Assembly: GCA_944390795.1 (NCBI GenBank)
Contig: CALXRI010000022.1
Coordinates: forward strand, 1-50,359
Source: an uncultured Victivallales bacterium
GTDB lineage: Bacteria > Verrucomicrobiota > Lentisphaeria > Victivallales > UBA1829
DNA: 50,359 nt
Direction: 5' to 3'
Shown here: positions 18,454 to 50,139 of the stretch, piece after piece
Position numbering within the stretch: position 1 is the first letter of the stretch
How the letters are laid out: each line of letters starts with the position of its first letter
Notes under the pieces: model-generated
Database searches by the model: none
What the model was told of the DNA's origin: nothing
The model's input: the letters and a program-made list of their open reading frames with translations, nothing else
Made by a program: the position numbers and the translations under genes

Positions 18454-18576
18454 GCCGCTTTCCGGGAAATGGCGCGAAATCTCCGGCGCGGCGGCATTTT
18501 CCGGGATTTTTTCCGGCGGCGGCTGGCAAAAATCTCTCATCCTGTTATATTCCCGATGAAAGAATATCGGGAGGCC

Positions 18577-20445
18577 ATGAAAGGAATCATGAAAAAACTG
18601 CAAGCCGCTTTCCTCTGTTTTGCCGCTGGGCTTGTTCCAGGCTCCGCCGACGCGGCGTCAGATCGGGAGAAACAGATCATGCTGCCGGAAATTCCAGACT
18701 CGCATCCCCGCCTCTTCGTCAACTCCGGAACCGGATTCCGCCCGCTGCTGGAAGCCCGGAAATCCGCAGCTGGAAAAGCCCTTGCCGCACGCGTGGTCCA
18801 TGACGCGCGGGTGCTTCTGAAGGAAAAACCGGCGGAACGGATCATGGAGGGAAGGCGTCTGCTCGCTGTGAGCCGCAATGTCCTTTACCGGGTCAACACG
18901 CTTGCGGCGGCGTTCCGTTTGACCGGGGAAAAGGCATTTGCCGAACGCGCCGCGCTTGAAATGTGCGCGGCCGCGGATTTCCCGGACTGGAATCCGGCTC
19001 ATTTCCTGGATGTCGCGGAAATGACGCTTGCGCTTGCCGTCGGTTACGACTGGCTTTATGAAACGCTGGACGAGGCGCGGCGCGTGAAGATCCGCGATGC
19101 GATTCTGGAGAAAGGGCTCCGCCCCTCCTTCCGGGGACGCCAGTGGTGGGTGACGGGGAAAAACAACTGGAATCAGGTCTGTCATGCGGGTATGGTTGCG
19201 GGAGCGCTCGCCATTGCCGATTCCGAACCCGCGCTGGCGCGGAAGGTCATGGAGCGCGCCATCCGGAATCTGCCGCGCTCCATGAAGGCGTCCTTTTCTC
19301 CGAACGGGGCTTATCCGGAAGGTCCGATGTACTGGGGATACGGCACCGAATTCACCGTGGCGCTGCTGGCGCTGCTGGAGGGAGCGTTCGGACAGGACTT
19401 CGGACTTGCGGAGATTCCCGGTTTTTCCGTGACCGGGGATTTCGTCATTGCCGCGACCGCGCCGTCCGGACTCCTGTTCAATTATGCCGACTGCGTGAAA
19501 ACGCTCGGGCCCTCCTTCGCCATGCATTACCTGACTTTCCGTTTCGGGCGCCCGGACTGGTTTTCCCGTCACGAGCGGGAGATCCTGGACCGCGAGGCGA
19601 AGGAGCGTCCGCGAAATCTGCGTGCCGGGCGGAACCGCATGCTGCCTCTTTCGCTTCTGTATCTGCGCGACTGGCCGGAAGCGGATCCCCGCGCGGGAAA
19701 AACTTTTTACTGCAGCGGGAACACGGCGGCGGTGCCTGTGGCAATGTACCGGACGGGCTGGAAAAAGACGGACGCCTATCTCGGCGTGAAGGGCGGTTCG
19801 CCTTCCGGTCCTCACGGTCACATGGATGGGGGCTCTTTCATCTATGAGGCGGACGGTGTCCGCTGGGCGTCCGATCTCGGCATGGAAAATTATCACGGAA
19901 TAGAGGCCCGGGGCATCGAGCTCTGGAACAACAGCCGGAACAGTGAACGCTGGAGCGTGTTCCGGATCGGGCCGGACAGCCACAATATTCTCCGGATCAA
20001 CGGAAATCCTCAGCTGACGGACGGGAAGGCGAAATTCCGCAGATGCACACCGGAATCCTGTACGCTGGACCTGACGGGCTTGTACCGGAACGATGCGGAA
20101 AAGGTGGCGCGCACTTTGGAACTGCGCCCCGATGGTTCCCTGCGGATCACGGACACACTGAAAGGGGTGAATCCGGGCGTGCGCATCCGCTGGCAGCTCT
20201 GCACGGAGACTGCCGCACTTTCCTCCGGCGCATCGCTTCATCTGCAATCCGGCGGGAAAAAACTCGTCATCCGGAACGACTGCGGCGCGGACTGGACCGT
20301 CACGCCGGCGGAGCAGTGGATGCACGATTTCGACTCGCCGAACGGGACGGCGAAGATCGTTTTTTTCGAAATTCCGGCTCCCGGAAGCGGCAGACTGAAA
20401 ATGACTGTTGAATTTCTTCCGGGTTCGATCCGGAACCGGAAATGA
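18577..20445 (+). CDS. Secreted heparinase II/III-like protein
   Basis: A protein of 622 residues with a signal peptide (MKKLQAAFLCFAAGLVPGSA, from the inner ATG at 18589). The first half, about residues 30-330, is an (alpha/alpha) toroid with SHPRLFVN, YDWLYETLDEARRVKIRDAI, GKNNWNQVCHAGMVAGALAI and NGAYPEGPMYWGYGTEF. The second half is the heparinase II/III beta-sandwich, with GSPSGPHGHMDGGSFIYEAD near residue 410, the histidine-bearing motif of the family. Such enzymes are polysaccharide lyases acting on uronic-acid polymers such as alginate or glycosaminoglycans. Start 18577 follows GGGAGG closely; 18589 is also possible. It stands alone on its strand, followed by the hairpin element. Confidence 0.85.
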   Translation: MKGIMKKLQAAFLCFAAGLVPGSADAASDREKQIMLPEIPDSHPRLFVNSGTGFRPLLEARKSAAGKALAARVVHDARVLLKEKPAERIMEGRRLLAVSRNVLYRVNTLAAAFRLTGEKAFAERAALEMCAAADFPDWNPAHFLDVAEMTLALAVGYDWLYETLDEARRVKIRDAILEKGLRPSFRGRQWWVTGKNNWNQVCHAGMVAGALAIADSEPALARKVMERAIRNLPRSMKASFSPNGAYPEGPMYWGYGTEFTVALLALLEGAFGQDFGLAEIPGFSVTGDFVIAATAPSGLLFNYADCVKTLGPSFAMHYLTFRFGRPDWFSRHEREILDREAKERPRNLRAGRNRMLPLSLLYLRDWPEADPRAGKTFYCSGNTAAVPVAMYRTGWKKTDAYLGVKGGSPSGPHGHMDGGSFIYEADGVRWASDLGMENYHGIEARGIELWNNSRNSERWSVFRIGPDSHNILRINGNPQLTDGKAKFRRCTPESCTLDLTGLYRNDAEKVARTLELRPDGSLRITDTLKGVNPGVRIRWQLCTETAALSSGASLHLQSGGKKLVIRNDCGADWTVTPAEQWMHDFDSPNGTAKIVFFEIPAPGSGRLKMTVEFLPGSIRNRK

Positions 20446-20550
20446 GCTTTCGTCTGCTGCGGAAATCCCTGTGACGCGCAGCTTTTCTCCGGGACGCTGC
20501 GACAGGATGCGTGAGGCGGGGATTTTTTATTCAAAAAAATTTAGGTTAAT

Positions 20551-20673
20551 ACCGCGATGCTCTGCATCGCCAAAAATTGCTTCGTGCAGGACTCTCAGTC
20601 CTGCCGCGATCCAGCTGCGCAAGCTGGTCGCCGGAGGCGAAATCCCTGATACCGCGCATGCTTGCATCGCGGT
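20551..20673. repeat. Five-hairpin palindromic element
   Basis: Within 123 bp between convergent genes there are five adjacent perfect or near-perfect stem-loops: GCGATGC-TCT-GCATCGC (20554-20570), GCAGGACT-CTC-AGTCCTGC (20586-20604), CCAGCT-GCGCA-AGCTGG (20611-20627), TCGCC-GGA-GGCGA (20628-20640), and ACCGCG-C-ATGC-TT-GCAT-CGCGGT (20651-20673). The outer sequences TACCGCGATGC and its complement GCATCGCGGTA form terminal inverted repeats, so the whole could fold back as one MITE-like or REP/BIME-like unit. It sits between the heparinase-like gene and the GntR gene, where it could end transcription from both sides. Its identity is unknown to me. Confidence 0.75.
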
Positions 20674-20676
20674 AAT

Positions 20677-21312
20677 TTATTTCGCTTTTTTCTGCACAGG
20701 TCCGATGCAGCCGTTCAGAATATGCTTTTCCAGGAGTCTTTCCGCCTTTTCCAGATTCTGTTCCCGGATGGCGGATAAAATGCCGATGCGTTCCGCAATC
20801 AGATCTTTGAGCCGCGCGTTCTCATAGTTGCGGTAATTCCGGTAGGGGGCGGTCTTTCTGTGGAACTGTTCGATCAGCGCGGCAAGGCAGCGGTTGCCGC
20901 AGTAATCCCGGATCAGCGCATGCATTTCCTGATCCGCCGCAAGCGCGCTTTTCCGGGCGTTTTCCCCCCGGGGGCATTGCCGGAGCGCGGCGAGAAGCCC
21001 GTCGGTTTTTTCCGCCGGAATCCGTCCGATTGCGCGTTTCAATGCCTGAAGTTCCAGCATGCAGCGGCATTCGAAGAGCTCCCGGAGCGCTTTTTCATCC
21101 GGCAGCGCGACCCGGAAACCGCGAGGCAGGGGCTCGATCAGCCCTTCCGCCGCAAGTCTGCGCAGAGCTTCCCGGACCGGTGTCCGGCTGATTCCGAATT
21201 CCACCGTGAGTTTTTCCTCCGGGAGGGTTTCTCCTGCCGGGTATGTCCCGGATACAATTTTTTTCACAAGCTCCTCATAGGCCTGATCGGAAAGGTTTAT
21301 CTTTTTCAGCAT
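20677..21312 (-). CDS. GntR-family regulator, FadR/FCD subfamily
   Basis: A 211-residue regulator. The winged helix spans about residues 5-72, with the usual VSGTYPAGETLPEEKLTVEF, then GISRTPVREALRRLAAEGLI. It is followed by an FCD ligand domain of about 130 residues, all helical, with CRCMLELQALKRAIGRIP and a DQEMHALIRDYCGN segment that supplies metal-binding Asp and His. FCD regulators respond to organic acids such as uronate breakdown products, which would fit the heparinase-like lyase next door; that link is inference. Start 21312 (MLKKINLSD) fits the family; a longer open frame runs through the putative operator and is unlikely to be translated. Confidence 0.88.
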   Translation of the reverse strand: MLKKINLSDQAYEELVKKIVSGTYPAGETLPEEKLTVEFGISRTPVREALRRLAAEGLIEPLPRGFRVALPDEKALRELFECRCMLELQALKRAIGRIPAEKTDGLLAALRQCPRGENARKSALAADQEMHALIRDYCGNRCLAALIEQFHRKTAPYRNYRNYENARLKDLIAERIGILSAIREQNLEKAERLLEKHILNGCIGPVQKKAK

Positions 21313-21352
21313 GCCGGAAAGCTCCGCCTGTTGTCTGGTTCCATACGCCGGA

Positions 21353-21366
21353 TGTATGCAGTATAC
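21353..21366. promoter_or_regulatory. Possible GntR/FCD operator
   Basis: TGTATGCAGTATAC contains GTATAC and the similar GTATGC, separated by one base, about 40 bp upstream of the GntR start. FCD-type regulators commonly recognise GTATAC-like centres with flanking symmetry. This is a weak match, offered as a self-regulatory site. Confidence 0.3.
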
Positions 21367-21573
21367 CTCATAAAAAACAAAAAGCAAAGGGGAAACAGAC
21401 TTTTTGGCGGATAAAATTCCTTCCGCATGCAAGGCGGTCGTCGGGGCGCTCCGCCCGCAGTTCCGGGGTTTTCCGCCTGGTGTCTGCGAATCACTTCCCG
21501 GTCCGGCGGACGTTTTTTCTTTTCCCGGCCATTTCCTTTCAGACGTTTTTCATTTCCGCAGGAAAAAGCGTAT

Positions 21574-42023: not shown

Positions 42024-42641
42024 TCAAGATTGTTGCGGTTTCCAGTTTTTGCGGTAATCCTGGTATTTTTCCATGATTTCATCCACGTAGGTCCGCGTGG
42101 AGGGAATGGCGATCCGCTCCCGGAACGCCCCGTCGCGCGCTGCCGGTTTCCAGAGGTTGACGCGCCGGGCTCCCGCATTGTATTCACTCAGCGCCATCGG
42201 GATGCACTCCCGGTAGGCGCGCCATTTGCGGAGTGCGCGAGAGAGATACCAGGAACCGATTTCTATATTCAGTTCCGGGTCGAACAGGGCGCCGCGCGAA
42301 GGTGTGCGGAAGCCCTTCATCCGCGCCCAGTCCGCCGCGGCGAGATCCGGCATGATCTGCATCAGGCCGACTTCGCCCTTGAGTCCGCGTGCCCGCTTGT
42401 CGAAACGGCTTTCCTTCCAGATGACCGCCTTGATCAGGCACGGGTCCACGTCATTGCGCAGAGCCGCCTTCACGATCAGCTCGTCATAACGGGAGAAGCG
42501 TGCGTAGTAATCATAAAGGAAAGCGCCGATTCTCCAGAGAACGATAACCGAGCATACGGCGATCAGGGAGATGGCAAGGAGTACCAGAAACTGTGCTTTC
42601 CGGCTTTTTCCCCTTCGTTCCTGCCTGACACCGTATGCCAT
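42024..42641 (-). CDS. Membrane-anchored lytic transglycosylase
   Basis: A 205-residue SLT-type peptidoglycan hydrolase. One membrane segment (LVLLAISLIAVCSVIVLW, near residue 20) anchors an SLT domain from about residue 55: VDPCLIKAVIWKESRFDKRA carries the catalytic glutamate in WKESRFD, GEVGLMQIMPDLAAADWARM is the second motif (GLMQIMP) and MALSEYNAGARRVNLWKPAA the third (AYNAG type). It would cut glycan strands in the periplasm during growth or assembly of envelope machines. It lies 17 bp downstream of aspS and 13 bp before DUF3047. Confidence 0.9.
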   Translation of the reverse strand: MAYGVRQERRGKSRKAQFLVLLAISLIAVCSVIVLWRIGAFLYDYYARFSRYDELIVKAALRNDVDPCLIKAVIWKESRFDKRARGLKGEVGLMQIMPDLAAADWARMKGFRTPSRGALFDPELNIEIGSWYLSRALRKWRAYRECIPMALSEYNAGARRVNLWKPAARDGAFRERIAIPSTRTYVDEIMEKYQDYRKNWKPQQS

Positions 42642-42657
42642 GGGCCGTGTCTCCTGC

Positions 42658-44520
42658 TCAGGATTTCGCCGCAGTCTGCGCGGCCTGTTCGATTTCGCGG
42701 ATCCGCGCCGCCTCGGCCTTCAGCTTTTTAAAGGTTTCCTCGAATTTCAGTTCCGGTTCCAGCGGAATGATGCGGAGCTCGCGGAGCTGCTTCATATCGA
42801 CCTCCGCCGGAGCGTTCATCATCAGGTCCTGCGCCTGCTGGTTGAACGGGAAGGCGATGACTTCCCGGATGTTCGGCTCGTCGGCCAGGAGCATGACCAT
42901 GCGGTCGACACCCGGGGCAATGCCGCCGTGCGGGGGAGCGCCGAGCTTGAATGCGCGGATCATGCCGCCGAAACGTTCGTCGACGGTTTCGCGCTTGTAG
43001 CCGGCGATCTCGAACGCCTTGTACATGATGTCGGGGCGGTGGTTCCGGATCGCGCCGCTGGAGAGTTCAATTCCGTTGCAGACAATGTCATACTGATAGG
43101 CGAAAATGTCCAGCGGCTTCTTGTTGAGAAGCGCATCCATGCCACCCTGGGGCATCGAGAAGGGATTATGGCTGAAGATGATCTGGTTTGTTTCCTCGTC
43201 GAGCTCGAACATCGGGAAATCGACGATCCAGCAGAATTTGAAGACGTTCGGATCGATGAGGCCGAGACGGTTGCCGAGTTCAGTGCGGACCTGTCCGCCG
43301 ATTTCCAGCACCTTCGCCTCCTTGTCGGCGAGAAAGAACATCACGTCGCCGGGCTGGATGGATGCCATGGCTTTGAGCTGCGCGAGCTCCTCCGGCTTCA
43401 TGAACTTGACGATCGGACTCTTTTCTCCCTCGGCGGTCCAGATGATGTAGGCCATGCCCTTGGCTCCGACGCTCTGGGCGAACGCGATCATGTCGTCATA
43501 GAATTTCCGGGGCTGTGCGCCGCCGATGCCGGGCACCTTGATCGCGCGGACCACACCGCCGTTTTTCACGGTGGAGGCGAATGCGTTGAATCCGCTGTCC
43601 GCAAACACGCTAGAAACGTCGATCATTTCGAGCGGGTTTCGGAGATCCGGCTTGTCCGTGCCGTATTTCGCCATCGCTTCGCGATAGGGAATCCGCACGA
43701 ACGGCGCGGAACTGATCGTTTTTCCGCTGAATTTCGTGAAGATGTGGCAGAGCAGCTTTTCAATCACCGCGAAAATGTCATCCTGGGTGACGAAACTCAT
43801 TTCGACGTCCAGCTGATAGAACTCGCCGGGGGAGCGGTCCGCTCTGGCGTCTTCATCCCGGAAACAGGGCGCGATCTGGAAGTAGCGGTCGAATCCGGCG
43901 ACCATCAGAAGCTGCTTGAACTGCTGGGGCGCCTGCGGCAGCGCATAGAATTTTCCGGGATGGACGCGGCTGGGGACGAGATAGTCGCGCGCGCCTTCCG
44001 GCGAGCTGCTGGTCAGAATCGGGGTCTGATATTCCATGAATCCCATGTCGCACATGAATCTTCGGATCTCTGAGATGACTTTGGAGCGCAGGACGATGTT
44101 CTCATGGAGTTTTTCGCGCCTCAGGTCGAGAAAACGGTATTTGAGTCGCAGGGCCTCGGGCGCCTGTTCATCCTTGGCGATCTGGAACGGGATGACGTCC
44201 GCCTCTCCGAGGACTTCCATTTCCTCCGCAACGACTTCGATTTCTCCGGTTTCCAGTTTCGGGTTGACGGTTTCAGGCGTGCGGGCCACAACGGTTCCTG
44301 TGAAGCAGACCACGGTTTCGACGCGCCAGCGGTCAAGTTCCTGGTAGAAATGCATTTTGGGATCGACGACGATCTGGGTTTTCCCGTAATGGTCGCGCAG
44401 ATCGATGAAGATCACGCCGCCGTGATCTCTCACGCTGTGAATCCAGCCGGAAAGTTTGACTTTTGCTCCGACATCGGAGCTTCTGAGAGCCCCGCATGTA
44501 TGGGTTCTGAACATATGCAT
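42658..44520 (-). CDS. aspS: Aspartyl-tRNA synthetase (bacterial type)
   Basis: AspRS charges tRNA-Asp, or tRNA-Asp and tRNA-Asn in organisms that amidate. The 620-residue protein has the OB-fold anticodon domain ([20 protein letters not shown] near residue 22), class II motif 1 near residue 145, motif 2 [20 protein letters not shown] near residue 215, a GAD insert from about residue 290 ([20 protein letters not shown], then AKGMAYIIW) and motif 3 near residue 535, [20 protein letters not shown]. The GAD domain shows the bacterial type. Start 44520 has AAGGAG six bases upstream. It heads the leftward unit that runs to pyrF. Confidence 0.95.
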
Positions 44521-44587
44521 GATAGTCTCCTTGTCAAAATGCATGATACGAAACAGTAGCGCTGAAGTTGTAATATAGCATGCCATT

Positions 44588-44612
44588 CCCGTTATTTCTC
44601 ATGAAAAACGGG
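44588..44612. promoter_or_regulatory. Palindrome upstream of aspS
   Basis: CCCGTT-A-TTTC-TCAT-GAAA-AACGGG is a 10-pair stem with one bulged base, 68 bp before the aspS start and 102 bp before the tRNA-Val gene. It could be an operator or a structured leader. The TATATT of a possible aspS promoter lies between it and the gene. Confidence 0.35.
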
Positions 44613-44662
44613 AAGAAATCGGAGTATTTTGGATAAAACAGACGTTTTTTTGGGGAGGAAAC

Positions 44663-44691
44663 TTGAAAAAATCGCGGCAGAATGGTAAATT
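44663..44691 (+). promoter_or_regulatory. Promoter of tRNA-Val
   Basis: TTGAAA (44663-44668) and TAAATT (44686-44691) have a 17-nt spacer and end 22 nt upstream of the tRNA's first base. Confidence 0.55.
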
Positions 44692-44713
44692 TGAAGTCCC
44701 TGCACATGAATCA

Positions 44714-44790
44714 GGGCGCTTAGCTCAGTTGGTTAGAGCGTCACGTTTACACCGTGAATGTCGGGGGTTCGAGTCCCTCAGCGCCCACCA
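44714..44790 (+). tRNA. tRNA-Val (anticodon TAC)
   Basis: A 77-nt tRNA with an encoded CCA. The acceptor GGGCGCT (44714-44720) pairs with AGCGCCC (44780-44786); the D arm is GCTC/GAGC; the anticodon arm TCACG-TTTACAC-CGTGA exposes TAC, which reads GTA and other valine codons; the T arm is GGGGG-TTCGAGT-CCCTC with one G-T pair. The recombinase gene at 44903 begins 113 bp downstream, so its 3' end is the likely insertion site of a genomic island. Confidence 0.95.
44763..44790 (+). other. Probable attL of a tRNA-integrated island
   Basis: The T arm, acceptor strand and CCA of tRNA-Val make up the usual target of tyrosine recombinases, and such a gene follows at once in the outward orientation. 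No second copy of this sequence is visible in the window, so attR probably lies to the right or has been lost. Confidence 0.45.
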
Positions 44791-44902
44791 TTTTAGACTC
44801 ATTTTCAAAGAAAAGTTGCCGTTTATTACCATTCAGAGCTTTCTTTCTCTCTTTTCCGTATTATTTTAGCCAAAACAGGATTTTTCATCGCCGGAGGATG
44901 AA

Positions 44903-46198
44903 ATGGGAAAGAAAAACAAGATCAAACTGGAAACCGGAACTGTTTACCAGAAGGAAGAAGGCGGAACTTATTATTTCCGCTATCAGGTCAATCATGAACG
45001 AAAATGTGTCAGCCTGAAAACGCAGAATCAGGAAGAAGCTCTGAAAAAAGCAAAAGAACTTCTGCCCATCGTTCAGGCAACAACGGCAGAAGTGATCTCC
45101 GCACATGTTAAAGTGGCACGCAATCTCGCAAGAAAAAGCCGCCCGCTTGCTCTGAAGGACGCCTGGAAAATTTATGCGGAACATCCGGACAGGGCATTTC
45201 CCGCGACACGTCATGAAGAAATTTCCTACGAAACAACCTTTACGGAATTCATACGTTACATCGGGGAAGAAACACAGGTGGCGGCAATTACCCCAGGTAT
45301 CGCAGACCAATATGCGGCTTATCTCAAGACGACAGCAATTTCAGTATCCACACATAATCGGAAAATTCTCCGTCTCAGAAAAATTTTTTCCACACTCTCG
45401 GATTATTATTCCGAAGACAACCCGTTTGCATCCCAGAATCTGCGCAGAAAACCACGGGAAGAACAAGGAAACACGGTGCGCCGTCTCGCATTCACAAAAG
45501 AACAGGAAGAAGCAATTCTCAAGGTTCTGAACGATCCGAGTTTCAAAGTCATGAATAAAAAAGAGCTGAAAGTCATTTATCTGATCGGGATGTATACCGG
45601 ACAGAGGCTGAAGGACTGCGTTCTCCTGCAATGGGATCATGTGGATTTGATGCATCGCCGGATTTGGGTGAAACAGTTTAAAACCGGTAAAAAGGTATCT
45701 ATTCCCATCGCAGAACCGCTTGTCCGCGCACTGGAACAGGCAAAAGAATGGCGCATCGACTCCTACGTCTCTCCCAATGTGGCAAAACGTTATTTGACGG
45801 TAGACACAAAGGGAAAATCCGTAGGCGATAATTTTGTCAATATCGACGTGATGCGCGTCATCAAACGCGCCGGAATGGAAACCAACGTCGAAGTTCCCGG
45901 CAGAAAACGAAAGATGGTTGTCTACGGATTCCACAGTCTGCGGCACAGTTTTGCCTCGTTCTGCGCGGAGGCGGGTGTTCCGAAAGCAGTGGTGGTTTCG
46001 ATCCTCGGTGCGAACAGCGAAATCATTGATCAGTTTTATACGCACGTCGGGGAAGATGCCCAGCTCAAGGCGATAGAAGCCGTCAGCGGAACCGCAGGAC
46101 CATCCGACAGGGCACGGATCGAAAAAGCTTTGCAATATCTGCAAAATCTTCCAGATACACAAGAAGTGCAAAGTCTTATTAAAATATTAAAAGATTGA
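44903..46198 (+). CDS. Tyrosine recombinase (phage/island integrase)
   Basis: A 431-residue site-specific recombinase with an AP2-like or SAM-like N-terminal arm-binding part (GTYYFRYQVNHERKCVSLKT near residue 20, then ATRHEEISYETTFTEFIRYI). The catalytic domain has YTGQRLKDCVLLQWDHVDLM near residue 230 (first Arg), KQFKTGKKVSIP with the beta-hairpin Lys, FHSLRHSFASFCAEAGV near residue 348 (HxxR) and LGANSEIIDQFYTHVGED near residue 372 with the Tyr nucleophile. GGAGGATGAA precedes the start. It is 113 bp from the tRNA-Val and reads away from it, the layout of an island or prophage integrase. Confidence 0.92.
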   Translation: MGKKNKIKLETGTVYQKEEGGTYYFRYQVNHERKCVSLKTQNQEEALKKAKELLPIVQATTAEVISAHVKVARNLARKSRPLALKDAWKIYAEHPDRAFPATRHEEISYETTFTEFIRYIGEETQVAAITPGIADQYAAYLKTTAISVSTHNRKILRLRKIFSTLSDYYSEDNPFASQNLRRKPREEQGNTVRRLAFTKEQEEAILKVLNDPSFKVMNKKELKVIYLIGMYTGQRLKDCVLLQWDHVDLMHRRIWVKQFKTGKKVSIPIAEPLVRALEQAKEWRIDSYVSPNVAKRYLTVDTKGKSVGDNFVNIDVMRVIKRAGMETNVEVPGRKRKMVVYGFHSLRHSFASFCAEAGVPKAVVVSILGANSEIIDQFYTHVGEDAQLKAIEAVSGTAGPSDRARIEKALQYLQNLPDTQEVQSLIKILKD

Positions 46199-46215
46199 TT
46201 AATATGCTTCCTTGC

Positions 46216-46248
46216 AAATGCACAGGATAGTAATGTCTCTGTGCATTT
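46216..46248 (+). terminator. Hairpin after the integrase gene
   Basis: AAATGCACAG (46216-46225) and CTGTGCATTT (46239-46248) form a 10-pair stem around a 13-base loop, 18 bp after the stop at 46198, followed by ATAAAAATAT. It is a plausible terminator. The surrounding 46199-46382 is very AT-rich and holds no other gene. Confidence 0.5.
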
Positions 46249-46382
46249 ATAAAAATATAAAATGCACTATATGAATAAATATTTTTCTATAGAAAAAGAA
46301 AATAAGAATATGCTTTATTAAAAATATTATTTATGCAAAAATGGAATTTATTATTATCTCTATTAAAAAATAGAAATTATAC

Positions 46383-47780
46383 TTGATTTATGAATTTTTA
46401 TTTGCTATATTAATTATATTAGATATGATTTTATTATACTTATATATTTATGCAAAAGAAATAATGAAATCAAAAAAAATGAAGGATAAAAGCATGAAAT
46501 CAGAATCAGTAAATAATGGAAATCTACCATCTAATTATAGCGATAATTGTTCACAAGCCTCATCTGCATTTTCTCAAGATATCCCCCCATCTGCAAATGC
46601 TAATCTTCCAAACATGCTGCCCGATAATTCTTCCAGTTCTGACTCATCCTCCAATCAAGATATACCTATGCCGCTCATCTCACCAGTCCCCCAAAATGCC
46701 ACACACCAAGAGCCGTGCCATACTTCAATGGATTTTAACAAACTGGTTCCCAGCAGTCATTTTATTCTTGACAACTGGGAGGGGAAAAAAGCGATAGGCA
46801 GCCAAACGCTTGGAAAAGTTAAAAATGCAGTTTTCTGGGGAAATGGAAATCTTACCGCCTGGGGATTATCTATTGCGGCCTATATCGCTGACAGTAGTCA
46901 ACATCGTGACTGGTATGGAATCAACCAAATACAACGTGCCTGTGAGGAACAGGGAAATATTTTGCCGACCGGCATAAAAGGGGGAATTCCATGGCGTTTT
47001 AATCAAAATAAGGATGTTTTATACTTCAAAAATATTACAAATGAACAGGATTGCTGGAACTTTCATCAGCAAATAAAGCTTCTGCACCTAAATCTCGCTT
47101 TTGATGATCTCCGCAAAGAACTGGATTATGGAATAATAAGAAATGGGAAAAATTTCTTTTCATGTCTGCTGGGGAACAAATCCGCTCCTTGGCAGCTGAA
47201 CGAAACAGGAAAATCAAATTTGGAATGTATTTTGTCGATTCCCGGATTGCCGAAAAATATCTTTCTGGATGGATTTGAATATAAAAAAGCAGAAAAGCAA
47301 CTCCTAAAGCAAATGCTGAAAAATTTGGCGGAGGCTGGTTACTTTGTCTGTATTATTGCCAAAGAAAAAATGCCATGCTCACTATTTGAAATGGCTTATG
47401 AAGCGGACTACTGGCGTAAAGGAAAATCATCGGAACTGGACCTGTGTTTCCGGGATTGTATTGCCTCAAAATCTGCTTCCAGAGACATGTGTACATACCG
47501 GTATACATGCCATAAGGAAGCGATTTATTGGACGTATCGAATCAAGATGCTTCATTCTGCGCATCTCCGGGACTTTGTCTGGACACGAGTCCAACAGGGA
47601 CAGGATATTTCCCAGATAGTAAAGGACATTAATACACGTGTCATCATGCCAAAGCCTATTTCTGTTCCAACGCTACGTAAATATATGGCATTATGGAATA
47701 TTCGTGTCTATAAAAAACACAGGCATTACCGAAAACGCGGAATTCAGCAATGGAAAGATCAGTCACAGGAACTGATGTAA
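46383..47780 (+). CDS. Island protein of unknown function with N-terminal membrane helix
   Basis: I do not recognise this 465-residue product. The frame opens with a TTG in a strongly AT-rich stretch; a hydrophobic helix (FLFAILIILDMILLYLYIYA) leads to a Ser/Asn/Pro-rich linker (about residues 35-120) and a globular part of about 340 residues. The globular part shows a strand-loop VFWGNGNLTAWGLSIAAYIA, a later strand NIFLDGFEY preceding a long helix, and FVCIIAKEKM, an order resembling a RecA/RepA-like ATPase without its P-loop lysine, but this is a guess. The C-terminus (SVPTLRKYMALWNIRVYKKH) looks like a helix-turn-helix with a basic tail. An internal start such as ATG 46494 would leave out the helix. 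Codon use is more AT-rich than in the flanking genes, consistent with transfer. Confidence 0.55.
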   Translation: MIYEFLFAILIILDMILLYLYIYAKEIMKSKKMKDKSMKSESVNNGNLPSNYSDNCSQASSAFSQDIPPSANANLPNMLPDNSSSSDSSSNQDIPMPLISPVPQNATHQEPCHTSMDFNKLVPSSHFILDNWEGKKAIGSQTLGKVKNAVFWGNGNLTAWGLSIAAYIADSSQHRDWYGINQIQRACEEQGNILPTGIKGGIPWRFNQNKDVLYFKNITNEQDCWNFHQQIKLLHLNLAFDDLRKELDYGIIRNGKNFFSCLLGNKSAPWQLNETGKSNLECILSIPGLPKNIFLDGFEYKKAEKQLLKQMLKNLAEAGYFVCIIAKEKMPCSLFEMAYEADYWRKGKSSELDLCFRDCIASKSASRDMCTYRYTCHKEAIYWTYRIKMLHSAHLRDFVWTRVQQGQDISQIVKDINTRVIMPKPISVPTLRKYMALWNIRVYKKHRHYRKRGIQQWKDQSQELM

Positions 47781-48085
47781 TTCAGAACATCGGTATTGCG
47801 GTATCGCACTGCTGAGCCTACCATTTTCCTTTTGAATGGGAAAGCACCCTCGGCTTCGAGTTTTTTGAAATTGCTATGGCTGATGTTGAGCATCTCCGCG
47901 ACCTCACGCTGATCCAGAAGTTTCGGAGTGACCACAGCTTTGGGAACACCATGTTCCGCAAGGCTGGTCAATTGAGAGATTGCCTCGTTGTATTCCGGCA
48001 GTGAAATAATTCCTTCTTCTGCGACCGGACGCATGATCCGTTTGAAGAAACGGACGGTATTCATTGAAATTCTGATTTCATTCAT
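47759..48085 (-). CDS. AlpA/excisionase-like helix-turn-helix protein
   Basis: A 108-residue protein with an MerR-type HTH_17 domain in its C-terminal half: LLDQREVAEMLNISHSNFKK, then LEAEGAFPFKRKMVGSAVRY and DVLNYISS. Such domains occur in AlpA regulators and excisionases of integrative elements, which help the recombinase to leave the chromosome and regulate island genes. The N-terminal 50 residues (helical, with FFKRIMRPVAEEGIIS) are an extra extension. AAAGGAGGGGCG precedes the ATG. It reads against the unknown protein, and their ends overlap by 22 bases. The iterons start 200 bp beyond its start. Confidence 0.7.
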   Translation of the reverse strand: MNEIRISMNTVRFFKRIMRPVAEEGIISLPEYNEAISQLTSLAEHGVPKAVVTPKLLDQREVAEMLNISHSNFKKLEAEGAFPFKRKMVGSAVRYRNTDVLNYISSCD

Positions 48086-48288
48086 GTATACGCCCCTCCT
48101 TTGAGCGCATACGATCGCGGGTCATGAATCTTTTTTACTTTTGAGTTCCTGTTATTTTATGCGGGACCTAAGTGTAAAAGCTGCCTCATTCAGCATTACG
48201 GCAACTCATGTTTCGAAAAGTTATGGAAATACAGGCACATTCCAATCAGACTCAACTCGGTTATTAGAAATAGCTAAAGCTATAAAGC

Positions 48289-48351
48289 CATAAGCCTAAA
48301 CAGCAGGCATAAGTCTAAACAGCAGGCATAAGCCTAAACAGCAACCATAAG
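48289..48351. repeat. Three 19-bp iterons plus a partial copy
   Basis: CATAAGCCTAAACAGCAGG at 48289-48307 is repeated at 48308-48326 (one base changed, C to T) and at 48327-48345 (last two bases differ), and a fourth CATAAG follows at 48346-48351. Direct, ungapped repeats of 19 bp resemble iterons bound by replication or island-control proteins. They lie 86 bp upstream of the YagK/YfjJ-like gene and 204 bp upstream of the AlpA-like gene's start, on the opposite strand. The intervening 48086-48288 holds no gene. Confidence 0.8.
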
Positions 48352-48357
48352 AAAACG

Positions 48358-48441
48358 ATGAACAGAGAACAGGAAGCACAGAATAAGCCCGAAAATAAGA
48401 TACGGGAATTGATTTCTAATGATTATTCGAATTCAGAATGA
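48358..48441 (+). CDS. 27-codon ORF coupled to the YagK/YfjJ-like gene
   Basis: ATG 48358 to TGA 48441 encodes MNREQEAQNKPENKIRELIS plus seven more residues. Its stop overlaps the next gene's start as ATGA, suggesting translational coupling, and it directly follows the iterons. It is hydrophilic and helix-prone. The ribosome site is weak (AAGAAAA) and there is no family match; it may only be a leader peptide or chance. Confidence 0.35.
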   Translation: MNREQEAQNKPENKIRELISNDYSNSE

Positions 48442-48929
48442 GAATAATTACAGAACAGAAATCAATCATGGCATACATAAAATCATTCAGAAAAGGAGCA
48501 GAGCAAACCATGCCGAAAAGACACCACCACTCGGAGAGCCAGTTAAACCATTTATCCGTGAATGCCGATCCGGAGCATCCCGTTTATCGGGAGGCAGTGA
48601 ATGAAATTCAGAAACGGTTACGGTACATGACGGATAAGCATAGCCAGGTATTTGTAGGACATCTGGAATTCCGTTTTCCTCCTGAAATGGAAAACCAAAA
48701 TGACAACCGGCATATTTCCAATGCGATACGCAAATGCCGGATGAAGTTGAAGCGGGAGGGGATCGACGCCCAGCTTGTCTGGGCACGAGAACAACGTGAT
48801 TCCGAACATCCTCATTATCACTGCTATCCGGTTTGTGACGGCAACAAGGTTCAGCTCGGCCTCACTCATTTCATCATAGACGAGCTTCGCGTGGAAGATC
48901 GACAGTCCGCCCCGGACCAGATTCAGTAA
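48438..48929 (+). pseudogene. Truncated YagK/YfjJ (inovirus Gp2-like) replication-type protein
   Basis: The first 135 residues resemble the YagK/YfjJ family found in inoviruses, P4-like satellites and islands. After MPKRHHHSESQLNHLSVNAD come VGHLEFRFPPEM, NDNRHISNAIRKCRMKLKRE and, near residue 125, AREQRDSEHPHYHCYPVCDG, whose HYH recalls an HUH endonuclease site. The second half, with the expected Tyr, is missing: from about 48845 the open frame runs on the opposite strand of the aldo/keto reductase relic and ends at 48929. Full-length relatives have about 200-250 residues. The product is probably inactive. Confidence 0.7.
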
Positions 48930-49125
48930 TGCGAGATTGCGGGGTATATTTACTCCAATCGGACACGGCGAACAGTAGCGGCATGCCGTGCAAGGAACCG
49001 CGCCGGATTTGCGGTAAGCCGCCAGCACCTTGGTGATGACCTGACGCTCGGCATCGGTCAGAGGCTTCAGCGGGGAGAAGGTGCTGATGTTGTCCTCCAT
49101 CTGTTCTAGATCGTGTCGTCAATAG

Positions 49126-49513
49126 TTAAAAGACCCAAGCTGCAATACACCTGATTTGTACTGCAGCAAGAAACGAAGCGGTGTTTTTAGCATATCTGGT
49201 TGCGACTCCGCGCCAACGTTTTAATATCATGAATGCATTCTCGACAAAGTGCCGTAACTTGTACAACTCCTTGTCGTATTCACGTTGCGTTTTGCGATTC
49301 TTTCTTGGCGGAATAACTGCCTTCATCCCTGCTTTTTCCGCTTTCTCGACAATTGCGTCCGAATCATAACCACGGTCTGCCAGAAGAACCTTCGCTTTGA
49401 TGTTATCAATCAAGGCTTCAGCCTGCTTACAATCCGCCGTGGTACCTTCTGTAATAAGGATTCTGACCGGCATACCATGCGCATCCACGGCCAAATGTAT
49501 CTTGGTGTTGAGC
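49126..49513 (-). CDS. IS5-family transposase, C-terminal ORF B (reached by -1 frameshift)
   Basis: ORF B supplies the remaining DDE part: HLAVDAHGMPVRILITEGTT, the second Asp in LLADRGYDSDAIVEKAEKAG, and the Glu in LRHFVENAFMILKRWRGVAT followed by the basic RYAKN tail. It has no good independent start, so it should be made as a fusion with ORF A through slippage at the G run. The fusion would be about 270 residues, normal for the group. Both catalytic Asp residues and the Glu are present, so the enzyme may be active. Confidence 0.85.
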
Positions 49514-49883
49514 CCCCTTTTGTCTTGGCCATATCTTGATTGCCTCCACGAGCACCACTCCCATGTGCATGAACTTTGATATGACTTGCATCAATCATCA
49601 ACAGCTCAAATTCTGGATTGTCAATCAATTCCTGCAATAATTTCTCCCAAACTCCTTTGTCACGCCAACGGCAAAAACGCCGGTGAGTATTTTTCCAATC
49701 TCCGTAACTCGGTGGCAAATCACGCCAAGGAGCCCCCGTTCGTAAAATCCAAAATACCGCATTGATAAATTGCCGGTTGTCGCGAGCGTTGCCGCCCCAA
49801 GTTCCCTTGCGCCCCGGTAGCAAAAATTCGATTTTAGCCCAAGATTCATCCGATATATCATGTCGTTCGTATGCATTCGCCAT
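49410..49883 (-). CDS. IS5-family transposase, N-terminal ORF A
   Basis: ORF A encodes the N-terminal part. The N-terminus of IS5-type transposases (YERHDISDESWAKIEFLLPG, then DNRQFINAVFWILRTGAPWR, DLPPSYGDWKNTHRRFCRW) leads to the first catalytic aspartate in LLMIDASHIKVHAHGSGARG. Near 49512-49521 the run AAAAGGGGGC lets ribosomes slip back by one base, changing TKGGSTPR to TKGGLNTKIHLAVD, the usual family sequence, and entering ORF B. Without slippage the product is 157 residues and ends at 49410. Start 49883 (MANAYERHD) is chosen from ribosome-site spacing; 49892 is possible. Confidence 0.85.
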   Translation of the reverse strand: MANAYERHDISDESWAKIEFLLPGRKGTWGGNARDNRQFINAVFWILRTGAPWRDLPPSYGDWKNTHRRFCRWRDKGVWEKLLQELIDNPEFELLMIDASHIKVHAHGSGARGGNQDMAKTKGGSTPRYIWPWMRMVCRSESLLQKVPRRIVSRLKP

Positions 49884-50139
49884 TTTCCCCATATCCTTTT
49901 TTGACGTTTGCATAATATAGCACAAATCTATTGACGACACAACCTAGTGCGGACATCCCGGAAAGTACTACTTGCACATTGGGAAGACTGGCAACATAGC
50001 GCAGTCCCCACGACGCGATGCTTGCTTTCGGATTCGCCTTCTCGAAGACTTTTTTCGCTTCAGGCGTAAGCCGGACCAGTGTTCCGCCTTTCAGCGGCTC
50101 CATCACGCTGACCGGAATACCGAGTTTTGTCACCTTATG

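Follow-up and report, generated by a model that had tools for sequence, protein, structure and literature searches.

The window analysed here, a stretch of 50,359 nucleotides from an uncultured Victivallales bacterium (assembly GCA_944390795.1, contig CALXRI010000022.1), carries a gene with a heparinase II/III-like C-terminal domain and, convergent to it, a gene for a GntR/FCD regulator (Table 1). Between the two lies a cluster of hairpins at 20551-20673, which is one copy of a 150-bp, gene-less mobile DNA element. All five stem-loops that had been proposed from the sequence are present, including the two with three-nucleotide loops and seven and eight perfect pairs, and the outer repeats, described as facing each other, form an exact inverted repeat of 11 nucleotides (TACCGCGATGC at 20550-20560 and GCATCGCGGTA at 20664-20674). 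The extent given in the original prediction holds for the hairpins, but it cuts off both functional ends of the element.

Table 1. Features of the element and its flanking genes (positions in the window).
Feature	Position	Strand	Evidence
Flanking gene, heparinase II/III-like C-terminal domain	18469..20445	+	PF07940
Flanking target TTTAT, left cleavage site C_L	20526..20530	+	TTNAT before nearly all solitary copies; empty sites
Whole non-autonomous IS200/IS605-type element, 150 bp	20531..20680	+	49 matches in own genome; copies in sister species; orthologous empty sites
Left guide G_L, AATA; first A pairs with T at target -3	20548..20551	+	Covariation in 61 solitary copies
Left-end hairpin GCGATGC-TCT-GCATCGC, 7 bp, 3-nt loop	20554..20570	+	Pairing in 97.8 % of cells (40 aligned copies)
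Internal hairpin 2, GCAGGACT-CTC-AGTCCTGC, 8 bp, 3-nt loop	20586..20604	+	74 % of cells paired; kept in part of the copies
Conserved core (two hairpins, then AAATC), also found outside the 150-bp element	20611..20644	+	69 core versus 32 right-end matches
Core hairpin CCAGCT-GCGCA-AGCTGG	20611..20627	+	
Core hairpin TCGCC-GGA-GGCGA	20628..20640	+	
Right guide G_R, GATA here (AATA in most copies)	20648..20651	+	Position; covariation with C_R in autonomous relatives
Right-end hairpin CCGCG(C)ATGC-TT-GCATCGCGG, one bulged C	20652..20672	+	92 % of cells paired; same layout after tnpA in autonomous relatives
Right cleavage site C_R, the TTTAT that ends the element	20676..20680	+	Sequence; empty-site alignments
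Flanking GntR/FCD regulator gene, convergent	20677..21432	-	PF00392 and PF07729

The hairpin region has a folding energy of -62.1 kcal/mol, as compared to -42.5 ± 3.7 kcal/mol in shuffled sequences (z = -5.2). Among 40 distinct copies, pairing is kept in 95 % and 91 % of the cells of the two core hairpins, close to the values of the end hairpins, while the middle pairs of hairpin 2 are lost in about 16-18 of the 40 (~40 %). Covariation of the stems inside the genus is modest, with two-sided changes in 14 cells as compared to 4.6 expected by shuffling. Relatives that carry wholly different stems at the same places (see below) provide the stronger evidence.

The TAA stop codon of the gntR gene (20677-20679) lies inside the right TTTAT of the element; since target and right end have the same pentamer, the insertion would have kept this stop codon. 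In a congener (G002), the element occupies the same site and is joined by a second copy. Elsewhere in the window, G+C drops from ~0.57 to 0.435 toward the window end (42501-50000), near a tRNA gene (44714-44787), and this low-G+C region is possibly an integrated island.

Copies and insertion sites

BLAST returned 49 matches to the element in its own genome (G000; 3.44 Mb, 66 contigs), corresponding to about 45-50 copies, and at least 15 of these matches show 96-100 % identity across the full query. Dozens of further copies are present in the three tested congeners (G001, G002, and G003); the signal of the family is weak in G024 (another genus of the same bacterial family), and further genera and families hold the ends or the core alone. 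The original prediction had proposed to count copies in the genome and its relatives and had named a single copy without covarying stems as pointing to a chance or single-use terminator; the outcome is the opposite, namely many copies and covariation. Several copies in G000 are arranged in tandem ~150 bp apart and several lie at contig ends, as expected for a repeat that breaks assemblies; the element accounts for a main dispersed repeat of these Victivallales-like genomes, where its copies also break assemblies. Open reading frames of 150 aa or more contain fewer insertions than expected (22 of 38, as compared to 94 % of random sites), a depletion seen mainly in G000 and by a crude measure based on stop-free runs.

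We set the boundaries by aligning copies together with their flanks and by means of orthologous empty sites. The left edge, T(T)CAAAAAAA, stands immediately 3' of a flanking pentamer TTNAT, and the right edge reads ...CGCGGTAATT(T/C)AT. A boundary at the hexamer TTTATT was given up in favor of TTNAT on account of two left-end lengths (TCAAA and TTCAAA) and of the empty sites. The latter were sought by comparing the joined flanks of ten G002 insertions with G000, G001, and G003, and three loci filled in G002 proved empty in G000, that is, GCTTCAT^TCGAATTC, CGTTTAT^TTCACG (supported by G003, too), and GGTTCAT^TTCTTGAG, each with a single, unduplicated pentamer. A fourth locus, TTCAT^TCTGCCG in G003, agrees. 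Insertion is therefore exact, occurs 3' of TTNAT, and does not duplicate the target. Moreover, many G002 copies have TTCAT or TTGAT on the left and TTTAT on the right; pentamers that are unequal in so many copies do not constitute a duplication, and together with the empty sites this rules out reading TTTAT...TTTAT as a target-site duplication. Where copies stand in tandem, adjacent ones share a pentamer, which is the right one of the first copy and the left one of the second.

At one pair of orthologous loci (L007 on G000:C30 and L063 on G002:C29), G000 has an extra, older copy beside a shared young one, and G002 shows a clean junction, TTTAT followed by TTTTGAAATTC; either an exact gain or an exact excision would account for the difference. 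We also considered a general targeting of start codons by TTCAT insertions (ATGAA on the other strand) and rejected it, as most sites are not so placed; one such insertion (L068) lies directly before a plausible signal-peptide gene start.

Guide-target pairing

DNA-guided target choice of IS200/IS605 elements has been established in the laboratory with IS608, in which a change of the guide retargets insertion. In the element described here, the nine bases ahead of the left hairpin have the sequence ..TTN'ATACC or a similar one, with N'ATA as the four-base guide, and N' varies together with the N of the target. Among 61 solitary copies from five genomes, the target/guide combinations are T-A (25), C-G (12), G-C (12), T.G wobble (6), and other (6, one of which, the second match of L020, is a spurious parse). 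Watson-Crick pairs at target position -3 thus occur in 49 of the 61 copies, which are related by descent and not independent, as compared to 22.0 ± 3.4 in shuffled data (0 of 20000 shuffles reached as high). The mutual information of this position pair amounts to 0.81 bits and that of any other pair to at most 0.36 bits. Copies that stand behind another copy obey the relation in 6 of 11 cases (not significant), as expected where the left pentamer has been replaced by the end of the neighbor. The register matches that of IS608. In its structure, T-3 and T-4 of the target are bound by the guide bases A16 and A17, respectively (PMC5934647); in the 150-bp element, the partner of N at -3 is N', and the invariant T at -4 lies opposite the A that follows N'.

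At the right end, the rule can be followed in autonomous relatives, parsed with a looser regular expression; with a strict stem filter, nearly all of their right ends escaped detection. Of 37 distinct parses, 26 combine a right guide G with TTCAT and 7 a right guide A with TTTAT, so that right guide and C_R form Watson-Crick pairs in 33 of 37 (22.2 ± 2.1 when shuffled), and the four exceptions resemble misparses on inspection. The left ends of autonomous relatives, compared by eye, combine the guide AATT with TTTAA and AATA with TTTAT, which suggests that position -1 and the fourth guide base co-vary as well. Closely related natural copies hence follow the guide rule known from the laboratory, with guide and landing-site base changing together in three combinations; a second pair appears to change jointly among autonomous relatives. 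The copies thus offer natural material for asking which changes of the guide an element can tolerate.

Transposase and autonomous relatives

A Y1_Tnp profile search in 61 related genomes revealed IS200-type genes that have the same right end immediately behind them (G024:C293, L141; G058, L124; G044, L136; G057, L129). More broadly, the arrangement (G/A)ATACC-hairpin-...TT(C/T)AT directly after a Y1 tnpA recurs within the same family (G020, G024, and G044), within the order, and in other phyla. A Victivallales TnpA used as query retrieved 75 relatives in GTDB genomes, whose hosts include Lentisphaerae, Ca. Sabulitectum, Chryseobacterium, Confluentibacter, Bacteroides, Sulfurimonas, and others; in most of those inspected, tnpA is followed by GATACC- or AATACC-hairpin-GGTAGTT(C/T)AT and preceded by a matching left hairpin. 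Within the bacterial family of the host, intact tnpA genes of the matching subgroup are found in G020 (L299 and L312), with TTTTAT followed by TCTTTTGGGTTTAATACC... at the left end and ...GATACC...GGTAGTTCAT at the right. Both Pfam and NCBIfam assign the linked TnpA to IS200/IS605, and it resembles solved single-strand transposases including ISHp608 as well as the structure 2xm3, which we take to be the TnpA of ISDra2.

An intact tnpA of the matching subgroup was not found in G000 (95 % complete, 66 contigs), G002, or G003, and G001 holds only a remnant. At 95 % completeness this absence is unproven, and it concerns the ability of the element to move at present, not its assignment to the IS200/IS605 group. 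Species-specific insertions and copies at 97-99 % identity argue for recent mobility, which implies that an autonomous partner is either unassembled or was recently lost. The end hairpins have layout and guide in common with the known parents, but not the stem sequence (except for the right end in G024), and thus the direct parent is probably not among them. A different IS200 subgroup is represented by a fragment in G000 (C3:76606-76746, L031) and by an intact gene in G001 (C2, L127); the sequence beside the G000 fragment (reverse complement TTTTTCCGTTTGCATAACGCGTAATATAGCATACT) also follows the element copy that starts contig C39 (L019).

These data bear on the proposal of a REP/BIME (REPIN) unit that owes its copies to a RAYT (TnpA_REP). 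A REP/BIME-like unit was among the readings of the original prediction, and the proposal now appears very improbable. The element is indeed palindromic, multicopy, partly clustered, and depleted in open reading frames, and a HUH enzyme is involved in both systems. However, its foot reads N'ATACC instead of GTAG or GTGG, the unit measures 150 bp and has left and right cleavage sites, and the empty sites show insertion of the whole element beside a guide-matched target. The Pfam Y1_Tnp search detected no RAYT in G000, where the only Y1 transposase is the fragment mentioned above, and the matching transposase is an IS200-type TnpA, scoring 131 bits on the IS200/IS605 model (cut-off 55) and 30.6 bits on the RAYT model, far under its cut-off of 80.

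The hairpin core and a second repeat family

The core (CCAGCT..AGCTGG-TCGCC.GGCGA-AAATC) is the most strongly conserved part of the IS200/IS605-type element and is more frequent in G000 than the right end, with 69 as compared to 32 matches and 0 in reversed-pattern controls. Most of the surplus belongs to a second, larger repeat family, whose units of ~0.4 kb consist of many short hairpins. The core also occurs in another bacterial family (G039, L038), within an element whose end hairpins are quite different. In G000, the second, mosaic family is located at C24:39700-43200 (L282 and L283; tandem), C7:87500-88500 (L281), C11:19900-20800 (L284), and C18:55200-55800 (L285) and has the GCAGGACT/AGTCCTGC and CCAGCT/TCGCC modules in common with the 150-bp element. 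In another genus of the host's bacterial family (G019 and G024; L039, L047, L054, L059, and L060), intergenic arrays of very short hairpins with loops of 3-5 nt, for example, CACGCGTCAGCGTG, adjoin related core modules.

A structured RNA or terminator whose copies were spread by recombination instead of transposition would fit the strong fold, the location between convergent genes, and a core that is conserved across the order and common to the second repeat family. Against this reading, which we regard as very improbable and of which the structured RNA was also part of the original prediction, the element has no Rfam match (nothing relevant at the gathering cut-off and at E <= 1) and no T-tract directly behind the hairpins, hairpin 2 is missing in a large share of the copies, and the insertions are exact and guide-matched. 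The core may nonetheless have a secondary function. Tentatively, and with somewhat more doubt than confidence, we propose that single-base changes of the guide retarget the transposon family as it spreads (TTTAT to TTCAT to TTGAT), with sister genomes holding guide-sorted sub-families, and that the pair of core hairpins has a function of its own, as a DNA or RNA module borne by at least two repeat families.

Classification and proposed mechanism

Practically no likelihood remains for a MITE of the classical kind, which depends on a DDE transposase and shows terminal inverted repeats and target-site duplication: the 11-bp outer inverted repeat and the TTTAT on both sides of many copies resemble its hallmarks, but the pentamers differ in many others (left TTCAT, right TTTAT), the single pentamers of the empty sites already refute it, and the inverted repeat stems from similar end stems, which are unlike each other in many autonomous relatives. 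The element is thus very probably a non-autonomous single-strand transposon of the IS200/IS605 type, PATE- or MITE-like in character, and the original notion of a MITE-like mobile unit was right in substance, as the element is multicopy, inserts precisely, and has no gene of its own.

We infer that an IS200-type Y1/HUH TnpA would act in trans and bind the left and right hairpins on the single-stranded strand. The four-base guides 5' of the hairpin feet would pair with the cleavage sites, on the left with TTNAT in the flank and on the right with the terminal TTTAT or TTCAT of the element. The element would then leave its site as a single-stranded circle and insert 3' of another TTNAT picked through pairing with the left guide, presumably at the replication fork. 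Insertion into the lagging-strand template predicts a G-rich top strand; judged by the GC skew of the 16-kb surroundings, 18 of 21 sites in G002 have this orientation of the element (p = 0.0015), as do 14 of 22 sites in G000 (not significant), nearby and tandem copies not being independent.

Comparison with known systems

REP/BIME/REPIN units with their RAYTs are likewise multicopy, palindromic, and linked to a HUH enzyme, but differ in the motif at the foot, the size of the unit, the class of transposase, and the geometry of insertion. PATEs are palindrome-associated, non-autonomous derivatives of IS200/IS605 elements. Like these and like IS200/IS605-type MITEs, the element described here is short and gene-less and keeps the transposon ends; it adds the hairpin core module common to another repeat family, and the likeness is one of layout. 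A PATE-like element has been reported in Halanaerobium (PMC7290912).

IS200-type elements of Lentisphaerae ADurb.Bin242 (L183 and L195), a Victivallales MAG (L167), Chryseobacterium, and Ca. Sabulitectum have the same right-end layout, GATACC-hairpin-GGTAGTTCAT, and the same guide rule, and some have the same target (TTTAT followed by T). In contrast, they measure ~0.6 kb, carry an intact tnpA and other stem sequences, and have no hairpin core between the ends.

ISDra2 and IS608, single-strand 'peel and paste' transposons of the IS200/IS605 family whose target sites are TTGAT and TTAC, respectively, also insert 3' of a short specific site without target duplication. They have subterminal hairpins, too, and recognize the cleavage site in the same register through a guide on the 5' side of the hairpin foot (PMC5934647, PMC8612924). 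Unlike them, the 150-bp element has neither tnpA nor tnpB, and one family uses three target classes (TTTAT, TTCAT, and TTGAT) with matching guides. The element hence belongs to a kind already known but constitutes a new family, in which the natural covariation of guide and target is unusually clear and the switching of guides among copies is the notable feature.
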